Shown one piece after another: positions 27,602 to 32,634 of a stretch of DNA of 40,662 nucleotides. Made by a program: the position numbers and the translations under genes. Numbering within the stretch: the stretch's first letter is position 1; each line of letters opens with the position of its first letter. The notes below the pieces were generated by a model. The model worked only from the letters and a program-made list of their open reading frames with translations. It did no database searches and had not been told where the DNA came from. Source of the stretch: Alphaproteobacteria bacterium (lineage in GTDB: Bacteria; Pseudomonadota; Alphaproteobacteria; DSM-16000; Inquilinaceae); the NCBI GenBank assembly GCA_028281985.1, contig JANQIU010000136.1, forward strand, positions 1 to 40,662, read 5' to 3'.

Positions 27602-28252
27602 ATGAATATCCTGCTCGCCGACGATCATGTCCTGGTTCGAGACACCCTCAAGCTTTACATCGAACGAGCCGAGGAAGGGACGGTTGTGCGCACCGCGGAC
27701 GACCTGGAGGGTGCGCTTGAGATTGCCGCCAGCGGCGTCCCGCTGGACCTGATCATCCTCGACTACCGCATGCCCGGGATGGACGGCCTGGAAGGCATGG
27801 GCCGGATGATGAAGGTGTGCCCCGGCGTGCCGGTGGCGATCCTGTCCGGCATGGCCAACCGGGATGAAGTGCATGAGGCGATTGCCCGGGGCGCCGCCGG
27901 TTTCCTGCCGAAAACGATGGCCCCGCCCGCCCTCCTCGGCGCGGTCAAGCTGATCCTGACCGGCGAACGGTTTCTGCCGGCTTCGTCCTTCGATCCCGAA
28001 GGCGAAGACCACTCCCGGCCGCCGGCCCGCCAGGGCAACGGGCAGGCGAATTCCAAACGGCTGCTGACGCCGCGCGAATCCGACGTGCTTCACCACCTCC
28101 ACCAGGGTAAATCCAACAAGGAAATCGCCCGCGAACTCGACCTGAAGGAAGTCACGGTCAAGCTGCATGTGGGCAGCATCTGCCGCAAGCTGCAGGCAAA
28201 GAATCGGACCCAGGCGGTGCTGCGCGCCATCGACATGGGCTTTGTCGGCTAA
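27602..28252 (+). CDS. NarL/FixJ-type response regulator (REC + LuxR HTH), orphan in window
   Basis: MNILLADDHVLVRDTL, LIILDYRMPGMDG (phospho-Asp), GFLPKT, HTH LTPRESDVLHHLHQGKSNKEIARELDLKEVTVKLHVGSICRKLQAKNRTQAV. Confidence 0.94.
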   Translation: MNILLADDHVLVRDTLKLYIERAEEGTVVRTADDLEGALEIAASGVPLDLIILDYRMPGMDGLEGMGRMMKVCPGVPVAILSGMANRDEVHEAIARGAAGFLPKTMAPPALLGAVKLILTGERFLPASSFDPEGEDHSRPPARQGNGQANSKRLLTPRESDVLHHLHQGKSNKEIARELDLKEVTVKLHVGSICRKLQAKNRTQAVLRAIDMGFVG

Positions 28253-28276
28253 CCAGCCGGTCGGGGCTGACGTGCG

Positions 28277-28660
28277 TCAGTCCTTGGGCGAGGAACCGGT
28301 TGCCGCCCCGAGCGACGCGACGGTGGGGACCACGGCGCCTTTGGTCGATGCGGCTGCGTCTTCCATCTCGGCAACCAGGGATGTCAGATCGGCAGATCCG
28401 TCGGCGCCCATCTGCAGCGCCCGGGCCACCGCCTGCAAGCGGCTGGCACCGAAAGTCACCGCAAGACCCTTCAGGCTATGCGCCGCCTCGGCAACGAGGG
28501 GACGATCATCCGTCGACGAGCCGCGACGGATACGGTCGAGATCGGCATCGACCGACGGTCCGAAGCGATTCGCCAGCGCTCCGAGCGCATCCGCGCCCAC
28601 CGCCTGCAGAAGCGCTTCCAGGCGGTCCGTGTCGAGGAGGGGCAGGTCATCGAACGGCAA
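28277..28660 (-). CDS. Hpt (histidine phosphotransfer) domain protein
   Basis: EAAHSLKGLAVTFGASRLQAVARALQMGADG; about 127 aa single domain. Confidence 0.87.
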   Translation of the reverse strand: MPFDDLPLLDTDRLEALLQAVGADALGALANRFGPSVDADLDRIRRGSSTDDRPLVAEAAHSLKGLAVTFGASRLQAVARALQMGADGSADLTSLVAEMEDAAASTKGAVVPTVASLGAATGSSPKD

Positions 28661-28805
28661 GTCGGCGAACCGTCGGCGCTACGGGTGCTGGCAGCCCTCA
28701 GCATAGCATCGCTTTGCCCGACGCCAACGCCAGTCCGACGAATCCGCGCCCGACAGTCGACAAAGCCGGAAGACAGGGTCCCCTTGCTGTGGCAGGCTCG
28801 CATAC

Positions 28806-29009
28806 ATGTCCGAACAGCCATCCTCGCCCCGCACCATCGATGTCCGGGGCCGCAATCCCGTCACATCGGCCATCGCCGCGGTGATCATTCTCGTGGTCTG
28901 CATCGTACCGATCTGGGTCATGATCTACGTTTCCGGCCACGAGCGGGCGCCTGAGGTCCCCATCGACGACTGGTTCGGGTGGCCGTCACCGCCGCAGGCC
29001 TCCGACTGA
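28806..29009 (+). CDS. Small single-TM protein (67 aa), uncharacterised
   Basis: MSEQPSSPRTIDVRGRNPVTSAIAAVIILVVCIVPIWVMIYVSGHERAPEVPIDDWFGW; one hydrophobic helix; a stem-loop follows its stop. Confidence 0.6.
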   Translation: MSEQPSSPRTIDVRGRNPVTSAIAAVIILVVCIVPIWVMIYVSGHERAPEVPIDDWFGWPSPPQASD

Positions 29010-29017
29010 GCCCCCGC

Positions 29018-29047
29018 AAGGGTTGCAGGCGCCGTCGCTGCAACCTT
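29018..29047 (+). terminator. Candidate stem-loop after small membrane ORF
   Basis: aagggttgcag / gcgccgtcg / ctgcaacctt; 10 bp with one bulge. Confidence 0.5.
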
Positions 29048-29060
29048 AGGTCTTGGTTAA
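29046..29060 (+). promoter_or_regulatory. CtrA-like box (TTAG-N7-TTAA), one mismatch, before the 29086 gene
   Basis: TTAG GTCTTGG TTAA followed by TATGCT (29072-29077). Confidence 0.5.
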
Positions 29061-29085
29061 AGACCTTGGCCTATGCTCCCCGGTC

Positions 29086-29751
29086 ATGCCGTTCGAAACC
29101 CCGCCCACCCCGGCCGTCACCAGAGACACGGCTGCCGCTGAAACCGCCGGTCCCGGCGGGGTGGTCGTCCGCCTGCCCGGCTACACGCGGACCTATCGAC
29201 GGCTGGTGCAGGGCACCAACATCAATCCCCAGACCCTCCTGGCCACAGATTATCTGAACCATTTCAACGAAATAGCCATGCTGCTCGATCTGATCCCGGA
29301 GATGCCGGACTGTATCGAGGACGCGCTGGAATGGCAGCCGATCAGTTACGAGGCGCACTTTCGCAACAGCGTGCTGGCCGACCGTCACCTGGCGATCGCC
29401 GCCTACGAGAACGCGCCGGCGGTGTACCGCGACCCGTTCGACGCCACCGTGCGGCAGTTGCATGACCTTGTGCATACCGGCCTGGAACGCATCGTCGCGG
29501 TGATCGGCCGCAACGACTCGGCACTGCTGGCGATCACGGTGCAGTCGGTGTCGCAGAGCCTGCAGCGGCTGATGGACGCCGCCAACGGCATCATCCATGG
29601 CACCGTCGAAACGGTCGATCAATCGGCGATCGACCTGATCCTGGAAACGGCGGCGGTTTCGCCGGGCGAACCGGAAACGCCGGCCCAGATCCCGCCGGCT
29701 GTCGGCCCCGAACCCATGGGCCAGGACGATATCGACGCCCTGTTTGCCTGA
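29086..29751 (+). CDS. Uncharacterised protein with C-terminal FliM-like acidic tail (GQDDIDALFA)
   Basis: Start MPFETPPTP at 29086; ends ...VGPEPMGQDDIDALFA. No recognised catalytic domain. Confidence 0.75.
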   Translation: MPFETPPTPAVTRDTAAAETAGPGGVVVRLPGYTRTYRRLVQGTNINPQTLLATDYLNHFNEIAMLLDLIPEMPDCIEDALEWQPISYEAHFRNSVLADRHLAIAAYENAPAVYRDPFDATVRQLHDLVHTGLERIVAVIGRNDSALLAITVQSVSQSLQRLMDAANGIIHGTVETVDQSAIDLILETAAVSPGEPETPAQIPPAVGPEPMGQDDIDALFA

Positions 29752-29787
29752 GGCTGGTTGCCGAGCGGGCACCAACACCGGCAAATC

Positions 29788-29812
29788 TTAACGATTACTT
29801 AACCAATATTAA
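29788..29812 (+). promoter_or_regulatory. CtrA-type full box TTAA-N7-TTAA plus an overlapping further TTAA half-site
   Basis: TTAACGATTACTTAA (29788-29802), then CCAATATTAA; the second TTAA is followed by CC, giving a half-site-like TTAACCAA. Confidence 0.6.
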
Positions 29813-29842
29813 GCGTCCGAAACCCAGCGCAATCGATAATCA

Positions 29843-29871
29843 TTGAAAACGCGCGCTGGAGTACATATACT
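29843..29871 (+). promoter_or_regulatory. Sigma70-like promoter TTGAAA-N17-TATACT
   Basis: -35 TTGAAA 29843-29848, 17-nt spacer, -10 TATACT 29866-29871. Confidence 0.6.
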
Positions 29872-29877
29872 TGTAGT

Positions 29878-30084
29878 ATGGCTCTCGCACCTCCAGTGAC
29901 AGTGCCGCTGCCAGTCGCGGCCTACGCCCCGGCGCAAACCGTTTCCAAGATCGCGCGGGGCCCCCAGCACGCCAAGACGGATACCGTCACGGCGGTGGAC
30001 CCGGTCGGGAAGACCGAGGCGTCTGGCCGGTCCAAGCAGCAGCACCATCAGCACCGCGGCCTGAACCTCGACATCATCGTTTGA
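29878..30084 (+). CDS. Small uncharacterised protein (68 aa), possibly leaderless
   Basis: MALAPPVTVPLPVAAYAPAQTVSKIARG...HRGLNLDIIV; directly preceded by a strong promoter-like sequence, no room for a Shine-Dalgarno. Confidence 0.5.
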   Translation: MALAPPVTVPLPVAAYAPAQTVSKIARGPQHAKTDTVTAVDPVGKTEASGRSKQQHHQHRGLNLDIIV

Positions 30085-30140
30085 TCGGCATCACCGTCTG
30101 ACCGGCATCACGGTCTGAGCGGCCGTCGCCCCAGCACGGG

Positions 30141-31262
30141 TCAGGACGCGTCGCTGCCGCTGGGCGGGGCCAGATCCTGAAGCTTGCGCAGCAGGAATTC
30201 CGTGTCGTCGGTCTCCTGGCCCTCGCTCTGGGTCAGGATCCGCTCCAGCATGGTCCGGGCGAAACGATGCCGGTCATAGTCGGCACCGCCGAAATCGGTT
30301 TCTTCCGCCACGTCGACCGCCGTCCGGAACGCGGCGAACAGCCCCTCCGGCAGGCTCGCCTTGGCATACAGCGACTTGAAGCCCAAACCGCCGGAATCGT
30401 GGATCAGCACCCCGGCATTCATCGGCGGGATACCGGCCAGTCGTGCCAAGGCGAATTCGAAGAACTTGACGTCGCCCATGCACAGGGACCGCAGGATGAG
30501 CGACGGCGACAGACGGCCGCCCTTGGCCAACTGGTCGACCAGGCTGGACAGCCGGTCGTCGTCGTCGATGCCGTCGGCCAGGCCCATGGTCGCGCGCTCT
30601 CGCGCCGCCAGCAGCAGGTCCGTTGCGGTGTTGGCCGACAGGTCGTGCTTGGCCATCAGGTGATCGCGCAGGCTGTCGGAGGCCCGGGCGACCAGCCTTT
30701 CAGCGACAGTCAGCGGCAGTGATGCCCGTTCGACCAGCGGTTTCTGGATCGCCTCCATCTCACCGAACCGGTCGACGACGCGGTTCAGGGTGGAGTCGCT
30801 GATCGCCGCGCTGGGGTTGCCGACGAGGACTTCCACCACCTCGGGATTGTCGGTGTCGACCAAGGCGTCGGAGACCGAGCCGGACAGACCGTCGCGCCGG
30901 GCCACGGCCCGTTGCTTTCCCTCCGCCGTCGTCCTAACGATGTCGATAAGGTCGGTGTCGGTCAGGACCTCGGAAAACTCCAGGATCGGCAGCGCCACCT
31001 CGTCGATGTCCTGGGCAAGGCGCAGCGCGACATCGTGCGGCAGTTGCTTGGACGTCTTTACGCTCGCGGACAGCGCCTCGCGCACGGTTCTTGAGGCATC
31101 CTGTGCCATCGCCCGCACGATCTCTTCCGCCAGACGGCGCTCGCCGTCGCTCAACTCGGCATCGATGTTGCGGGCGATCTTTGTCGCAACGGCTGCCCGG
31201 GTGTCTGCGGAAGGATCGGAAAGCAGTCGTTCGACGTCTGCGTGCGAAAGATCGGAGGTCAT
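30141..31262 (-). CDS. DUF2336 domain protein
   Basis: Alpha-helical repeat-like protein: SHADVERLLSDPSADTRAAVATKIARNID...VEVLVGNPSAAISDSTLNRVVDR...LVERASLPLTVAERLV...RFARTMLERIL. Start at MTSDLSH (31262); alternative ATG at 31328. Confidence 0.8.
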   Translation of the reverse strand: MTSDLSHADVERLLSDPSADTRAAVATKIARNIDAELSDGERRLAEEIVRAMAQDASRTVREALSASVKTSKQLPHDVALRLAQDIDEVALPILEFSEVLTDTDLIDIVRTTAEGKQRAVARRDGLSGSVSDALVDTDNPEVVEVLVGNPSAAISDSTLNRVVDRFGEMEAIQKPLVERASLPLTVAERLVARASDSLRDHLMAKHDLSANTATDLLLAARERATMGLADGIDDDDRLSSLVDQLAKGGRLSPSLILRSLCMGDVKFFEFALARLAGIPPMNAGVLIHDSGGLGFKSLYAKASLPEGLFAAFRTAVDVAEETDFGGADYDRHRFARTMLERILTQSEGQETDDTEFLLRKLQDLAPPSGSDAS

Positions 31263-31344
31263 GTTGCTCCGGGTCCACTCCGGGATAAACGGCCTTGCGC
31301 CCGCATAAAGCTGCAGGCGGAGCGGCATCGTGCCGGGCCGCTGG

Positions 31345-31359
31345 TTAAGGTGGGCTTAA
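31345..31359. promoter_or_regulatory. CtrA-type full box TTAA-N7-TTAA
   Basis: TTAAGGTGGGCTTAA in the divergent region between the DUF2336 gene and the cytochrome c gene. Confidence 0.6.
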
Positions 31360-31461: not shown

Positions 31462-31872
31462 ATGAGCCTATGCACGGTCGGCCACGTTCACCGCTTTGTC
31501 GTCGGCCTGGCCCTGTTGCTTGCAATAGCAGGTTGCGGCCCGGGGACGCCGTCCGATCCCCTGGCCGCCCGCGGTCAGGAGGTGTTTGCCCGCTGTGTCG
31601 CCTGTCACGCCGCCGACCGCCCGCTGACCAAGGTGGGACCGCACCTGGTGGGCGTGTTCGGCCGGACTGCCGGTTCGCTGGACGGGTTTCCGTACTCCGA
31701 CGCATTGATGGCCTCGGGCCTGGTGTGGGACGACGCGACGCTGGCGGCTTTCCTGCACAATCCTCGGGAATTGGTGCCGGGCAACCGCATGGCCTTTGTC
31801 GGCCTGCGGGACGATGCCGACATCGACGCTGTGATCGCCTATCTGCGAGCGGTGTCCGACCCGGCGGAATAG
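31462..31872 (+). CDS. Class I c-type cytochrome, predicted lipoprotein
   Basis: Lipobox-like LAIAGC; heme motif CVACH; distal Met region GNRMAFVGLRDDADIDAVIAYLR. Confidence 0.9.
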   Translation: MSLCTVGHVHRFVVGLALLLAIAGCGPGTPSDPLAARGQEVFARCVACHAADRPLTKVGPHLVGVFGRTAGSLDGFPYSDALMASGLVWDDATLAAFLHNPRELVPGNRMAFVGLRDDADIDAVIAYLRAVSDPAE

Positions 31873-31905: not shown

Positions 31906-32634
31906 TCAGGCCCGGCGCCGCCGGGCCGCGGGCAACGCCGATGCGATCGCATCGACCTGGTGGCCCAGGTGAATGGCCAGACTGGACGGGATCTCCAGGG
32001 CCTCGTCTTCCCACGGGTCGGCTTCCGGACACGCTTCGGCATGCCGGGCCACGACCCGGTCGCGCTCGATCAGCAGGCTTTCGATCTGCGGCCGGAACAT
32101 GCGCAGCAGGTTGGTGATCCACACATTCACCGCCCAGGAAGGGTGGGTCTGGTCGATCTCGAACCGGTGCAGCAGGCCGATCAGCCGAACCGCCGGCAGG
32201 CGGTTTTCCCCGGTCACCCAGCGGTTGGTGGTGAACAGCCGGACCGGCTGGCCCACGGCATCGACCCCGATGCCGATGAGATGGCAAAGCGGCGGCTCCT
32301 GCAGCCCGTCGGTCAACAGGTCATGCGCCGACTCCGCGCCCTGCTCCTCCAGTTCAGGCAGGCGCAGGAAGGTGTGGAAATGGCCTTGGATCTCCGGCCA
32401 GGCGACGGTCATCGGATGATCATGAAAGTAGTACTGCGAGAAGTACTCGGCGTCGTAGACATCGCCATCAGGATAGTGCCGCCACGGCGCCGCGCCCGGC
32501 TCGCCGGCGATCATCTCCCGCAGGATCGTCGACTGCGATTTCGCCAGCAGGCGATGCACGTTCATGACGGCAGCGGCCGCGGCCTGCATCCCCTTCAGCG
32601 TATCCCAGGACAGGCTGGACAGGTCGGCGGTCAT
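31906..32634 (-). CDS. Conserved-looking protein of unknown function (about 242 aa)
   Basis: MTADLSSLSWDTLKGMQAAAAAVMNVHRLLAKSQSTILREM...WRHYPDGDVYDAEYFSQYYFHDHP...LFTTNRWVTGENRLPA; coherent globular composition. Confidence 0.75.
   Translation of the reverse strand: MTADLSSLSWDTLKGMQAAAAAVMNVHRLLAKSQSTILREMIAGEPGAAPWRHYPDGDVYDAEYFSQYYFHDHPMTVAWPEIQGHFHTFLRLPELEEQGAESAHDLLTDGLQEPPLCHLIGIGVDAVGQPVRLFTTNRWVTGENRLPAVRLIGLLHRFEIDQTHPSWAVNVWITNLLRMFRPQIESLLIERDRVVARHAEACPEADPWEDEALEIPSSLAIHLGHQVDAIASALPAARRRRA

Follow-up and report, generated by a model that had tools for sequence, protein, structure and literature searches.

SpbR of Caulobacter reportedly localises to the cell pole, binds PopZ and undergoes regulated proteolysis, all this in work said to concern Caulobacter only. 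In chemotaxis, CheZ and CheX use a pair of an acidic and an amide residue placed one helical turn apart, and FliM carries an N-terminal CheY-binding motif. The CtrA regulon of Alphaproteobacteria, Caulobacter included, has been treated in a comparative analysis (PMC2877005), and the SpbR study of Wang and Bowman (2019, PMID 30891828) is cited in PMC12700997. DUF2336/COG5330, the family of SpbR, was not named in the CtrA-regulon papers found by literature search; for this reason, membership of spbR and S68 (a gene for a 68-aa protein described below) in the CtrA regulon is apparently not generally recorded.

We analysed a window of 40,662 nt, i.e. the whole stretch of DNA. The initial annotation had placed six genes in it, from a LuxR-type regulator to a DUF2336 gene, and all of them were present at the given positions (Table 1). 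The LuxR regulator has an intact receiver (D7, D8, D54 and K104), the Hpt protein carries an HSLKG phospho-histidine motif and its gene lies tail-to-tail with the LuxR gene, and the 67-aa transmembrane (TM) ORF gave no significant match in Pfam, NCBIfam or PHROG. The interval is a junction and not a module, and the LuxR, Hpt and TM genes are unrelated neighbours. Quite probably, these neighbours meet here with a conserved CtrA-regulated pair of spbR and S68 at the right and with an independent gene for a CheY-docking protein, which we call the GQDD protein after its C-terminus.

Table 1. Coordinates of genes, boxes and peptide motifs in and next to the analysed interval
Feature	Position in window	Strand	Basis or remark
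REC-LuxR (REC-GerE, NarL/FixJ-type) response regulator, orphan	27602..28252	+	Pfam Response_reg 1e-22, GerE 2e-20
Hpt protein, stand-alone	28277..28660	-	Pfam Hpt 1.5e-9
TM ORF, 67 aa, single TM	28806..29009	+	no family
One-mismatch box TTAG-N7-TTAA, 5' of GQDD gene	29046..29060		
GQDD protein (ends GQDDIDALFA)	29086..29751	+	relatives, tails, AF2 model
First docking-like motif VDQSAIDLILE of GQDD protein	29620..29655	+	residues 178-188; predicted helix 179-190
Putative C-terminal docking peptide GQDDIDALFA of GQDD protein	29719..29748	+	residues 212-221; predicted helix 213-220
Perfect CtrA box TTAACGATTACTTAA	29788..29802		76 nt 5' of S68 ORF
S68, conserved 68-aa protein	29878..30084	+	orthologues and codon changes
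SpbR (DUF2336, PF10098), by family assignment	30141..31262	-	NCBIfam equivalog; Pfam 4e-82
Perfect CtrA box TTAAGGTGGGCTTAA	31345..31359		between divergent SpbR and cytochrome c genes
Cytochrome c, divergent from SpbR	31462..31872	+	Pfam Cytochrom_C 2e-9; conserved SpbR neighbour
DUF6969 protein	31906..32634	-	Pfam 1e-64; conserved SpbR neighbour

Exactly two perfect TTAA-N7-TTAA boxes and one box with a single mismatch were found in the window, and no others. In dinucleotide shuffles of the window, the mean number was 0.01 for perfect boxes and 0.36 for boxes with at most one mismatch. Chance cannot plausibly account for the two perfect boxes, whereas it may for the one-mismatch box taken alone. 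All three boxes reported for the intergenic gaps are thus real as strings of letters, but they are unequal, and only two have conserved counterparts in other genomes.

The genome itself is a fragmented draft (4.31 Mb in 361 contigs, 86% complete), in which 18 perfect N7 boxes were counted. When pairs of TTAA were assigned by match length to spacings from N3 to N12, their genome-wide numbers were 3, 3, 1, 6, 18, 3, 7, 4, 3 and 2, i.e. 18 at N7 against 1-7 at the other spacings (mean 3.6; Poisson P about 5e-8). The two perfect boxes of the window lie within 1.6 kb of each other, and 0.11 such close pairs would be expected genome-wide. The regulator presupposed by any link of this locus to CtrA is also encoded (contig C249:22342-23016, minus strand), with 70% identity to Caulobacter CtrA (E 8e-105). 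Other boxes of the genome include two overlapping ones between fliX and flgI and those at Flp pilin/TadG, near a dCache-HAMP sensor gene and near a sigma-54 activator gene. Since flagellar and pilus genes, which are classical CtrA targets, carry boxes, the motif appears to be functional in this genome. The genome resembles the CtrA regulon described for Alphaproteobacteria in having a CtrA orthologue, TTAA-N7-TTAA boxes and targets that include the promoters of fliX/flgI and the Flp pilus; what differs is that the boxed genes in this window are spbR and a 68-aa gene without a name. About 63 nt upstream of ctrA (C249:23079-23098), TTAA-N6-TTAA was present together with another TTAA half-site, and autoregulation of ctrA through such a site of non-standard spacing is possible.

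The DUF2336 protein passes the NCBIfam SpbR equivalog NF052659 (465.2 bits against a cut-off of 400, covering 357 of 373 residues) and is, by this assignment, SpbR, a member of a cell-pole protein family. SpbR orthologues (E below 1e-50) occurred in 80 of the 241 alphaproteobacterial genomes sampled. We scanned 320 nt upstream of 76 orthologues for TTAA pairs at N7 and at nine control spacings, and used downstream regions as a further control. The N7 box was perfect in 17 of 76 cases and matched at 7 of 8 positions in 33 more, while the control spacings gave 0-2 perfect boxes and 5-18 at 7 of 8, and the downstream regions no perfect N7 box and two at 7 of 8. As the control spacings share phylogeny and base composition with N7, relatedness of the genomes does not explain the excess. 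The CtrA box before spbR is therefore conserved class-wide across Alphaproteobacteria and specific in its spacing, with a recognisable box missing from about a third of the orthologues (26/76 below 7 of 8 matches).

Over the 76 loci, window included, spbR was accompanied by a divergent cytochrome c gene in 22, by a DUF6969 gene in 14 and by a Usp gene in 7; the conserved neighbourhood of spbR is thus its right side, beyond the end coordinate of the initial annotation. The window and 21 other loci have cytochrome c divergently upstream of spbR, or the box between both genes, and the box might therefore serve cytochrome c instead of spbR. However, no divergent cytochrome c was detectable at 9 of the 17 loci with a perfect box, from which it follows that the box belongs with spbR; we regard its assignment to cytochrome c as very unlikely. 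The window protein is like Caulobacter SpbR in scoring above the equivalog cut-off, and unlike it in being paired with S68 and in adjoining the conserved cytochrome c / DUF6969 / Usp block. As SpbR function was tested in Caulobacter alone, any function in the present organism would follow from the family name. A perfect CtrA box was likewise present 136 nt ahead of the gene for a DUF2336 paralogue (L121, G008:C17; 41% identity).

S68 is characterised by the conserved pattern VVAP...KQ.R...VKT.T..AVD...RG..LDI. Orthologues were found in six other genomes of the same order, and searches outside this order gave marginal matches only, so that S68 appears nearly confined to it. Between two congeners, its codons differed by 21 synonymous and 2 nonsynonymous changes, and by this record S68 encodes a genuine small protein that is maintained by purifying selection. 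The gene is arranged tail-to-tail with spbR in three genera (those of the window, G012 and G016); in the remaining genomes it lies on a contig other than that of spbR, the box still being kept. Over seven orthologues, four perfect boxes and one with a single mismatch were present upstream (5/7 boxed). In the window, a TTAA-N6-TTAA at 29799-29812 overlaps the perfect N7 box of S68, so that three half-sites lie within 25 nt.

Matters stand differently for the left part of the interval. Our synteny survey covered 75 other SpbR loci, in most of them with about 1.5 kb on each side, and neither the LuxR, Hpt and TM genes nor the GQDD gene recurred there, bar one weak generic LuxR match. The conserved synteny foreseen for the whole gene set was hence not found, and the proposal that the six genes form one regulatory module did not hold, four of them being unlinked to SpbR elsewhere. 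Orthologues of the LuxR regulator (1e-40) were present in 2 of 16 other genomes of the same order, and those of the GQDD gene sit among unrelated or housekeeping genes in other genomes. No CtrA box precedes the LuxR or Hpt gene in the window. Upstream of the GQDD gene, 80 loci yielded two perfect N7 boxes and three with a 7/8 match, numbers that other spacings reached as well, and CtrA control of this gene was rejected on that ground; its one-mismatch box is not conserved and probably arose by chance. Conservation in orthologues, by which the initial annotation had wished the boxes to be judged, therefore holds for those before spbR and S68 and fails for the near-box before the GQDD gene. It could still be argued that a single signalling island under CtrA control comprises all six genes and feeds into the control of flagella or of a phosphorelay, given three boxes in intergenic gaps and the fact that a chemotaxis-like tail, an Hpt domain and a REC-LuxR protein are all signalling parts. 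In view of the left-hand genes absent from other SpbR loci, the housekeeping surroundings of the GQDD gene with its unenriched upstream box, and the LuxR and Hpt genes devoid of any box, we find such an island scarcely credible.

The GQDD protein belongs to an unnamed, widespread, all-helical family that is independent of spbR and S68. At least 573 relatives were found in the genome collection, including those of Azospirillum, Magnetospirillum, Thalassospira, Pelagibius and Roseospira, and the family was present in 49 of the 241 sampled alphaproteobacterial genomes. No convincing match was obtained in Pfam, NCBIfam or PHROG, the sequence profile matched only low-complexity helical entries of the PDB, and a fold search with the model against PDB and viral structures gave nothing below E = 1 (best 1.7). 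AlphaFold2 predicts a helical core with confidence (pLDDT 86), and one helix of this core begins with the family's invariant LATDYLNH-NE segment and bears the invariant residues D55, N58, H59, N61 and E62. In three genomes of the same order (L026, L027 and L028), the gene immediately before that of the GQDD protein encodes a C-terminus judged by eye to be CcoS-like; CcoS takes part in cbb3 oxidase assembly.

In nearly every member of the family, the C-terminus is a peptide resembling Q-x-x-I-D-x-L-[LF], and some members carry two such peptides. The window protein terminates in a predicted helix of the Q-x-x-[IV]-D-x-[LMF] form. Three true CheZ proteins of the same genome, all with the catalytic NFQDITGQR motif, end in SQDEIDALFD, IDQDEIDKLLAGDD and SQDDIDAMFD, and its FliM carries NQDEIDSLLGF. 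Because the three CheZ proteins and FliM share this peptide, GQDDIDALFA is by sequence a docking peptide of the CheZ/FliM type, and docking of CheY by the GQDD tail, already proposed in the initial annotation, is strongly suggested. The three CheZ paralogues (L231, L232 and L233) are located on contigs C14, C78 and C36, and one of them directly adjoins CheY. A text search for EIDALL returned only noise. FliM was present in 43 of 49 GQDD-positive genomes against 98 of 192 GQDD-negative ones (Fisher P about 1e-6, phylogeny ignored). Among GQDD genomes, the tail motif was intact in 41 of 42 evaluable FliM-positive cases against 3 of 6 FliM-negative ones (P about 0.004), a comparison of small numbers in which some absences of FliM may be assembly gaps.

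As for the activity of the GQDD protein, two possibilities were weighed. The first is that the GQDD protein works like CheZ as a CheY~P phosphatase, the D55/N58/H59/N61/E62 helix providing the acidic-amide pair and the tail docking CheY. Invariant acidic and amide residues within one helix and a tail of the CheZ type agree with this. With CheZ it shares the C-terminal Q-D-[DE]-I-D-x-[LM]-[LF] peptide on a helical protein, but the QDITGQR catalytic motif is lacking and the core is unrelated. The window protein could not be classified as a CheZ, having neither a CheZ Pfam domain nor the QDxTGQ motif; a CheZ domain was likewise not found among the families matched by 56 GQDD members, and a profile comparison with CheZ by hhalign reached only 34% probability, outside the catalytic helix. 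As three CheZ proteins are moreover already encoded in this genome, we consider a phosphatase of this kind rather unlikely. The second possibility is a non-enzymatic sink, scaffold or localiser of CheY~P that competes with FliM, and it is consistent with the often doubled docking tail (residues 178-188 and 212-221 in the window protein) and with a model devoid of any known catalytic fold. On the other hand, the invariant polar residues of the core hint at a surface or activity of greater specificity, and we hold to this possibility only tentatively. FliM itself offers the same peptide, but at its N-terminus and in a motor switch protein, whereas that of the GQDD protein is C-terminal on a predicted cytoplasmic helical protein.

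Returning to the junction of a CtrA-regulated pair with an independent docking gene, the following course of events can be proposed. CtrA boxes precede both spbR and S68 and are conserved in their orthologues, and from these sites we infer CtrA binding as well as the sign and timing of regulation. Phosphorylated CtrA would bind both TTAA-N7-TTAA boxes and tie the timing of transcription of the two genes to the cell cycle. SpbR might then act at the cell pole like its Caulobacter namesake, with S68 as a putative co-regulated small partner or modulator. Separately, the C-terminal Q-x-x-I-D-x-L-F helix of the GQDD protein would dock on the CheY surface used by FliM and CheZ, and the docked protein would most likely sequester, scaffold or dephosphorylate CheY~P.

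We give about even chances to the wider proposition that GQDD proteins make up a CheY~P-docking class that had no name before, is widespread in Rhodospirillales-type Alphaproteobacteria and enters the competition of CheY, CheZ and FliM as a third participant, be it as phosphatase, sink or localiser, and that, separately, spbR and S68 are an ancestral CtrA target set. A class-wide CtrA box before spbR would place SpbR in the ancestral CtrA programme instead of making it a speciality of Caulobacter, and S68 is a small-protein candidate for study alongside spbR. If docking is true, many environmental Alphaproteobacteria (Azospirillum, Magnetospirillum, Thalassospira and relatives) would have an uncharacterised player at the interface between CheY~P and the flagellar motor, and this additional player would exist even beside three CheZ paralogues.
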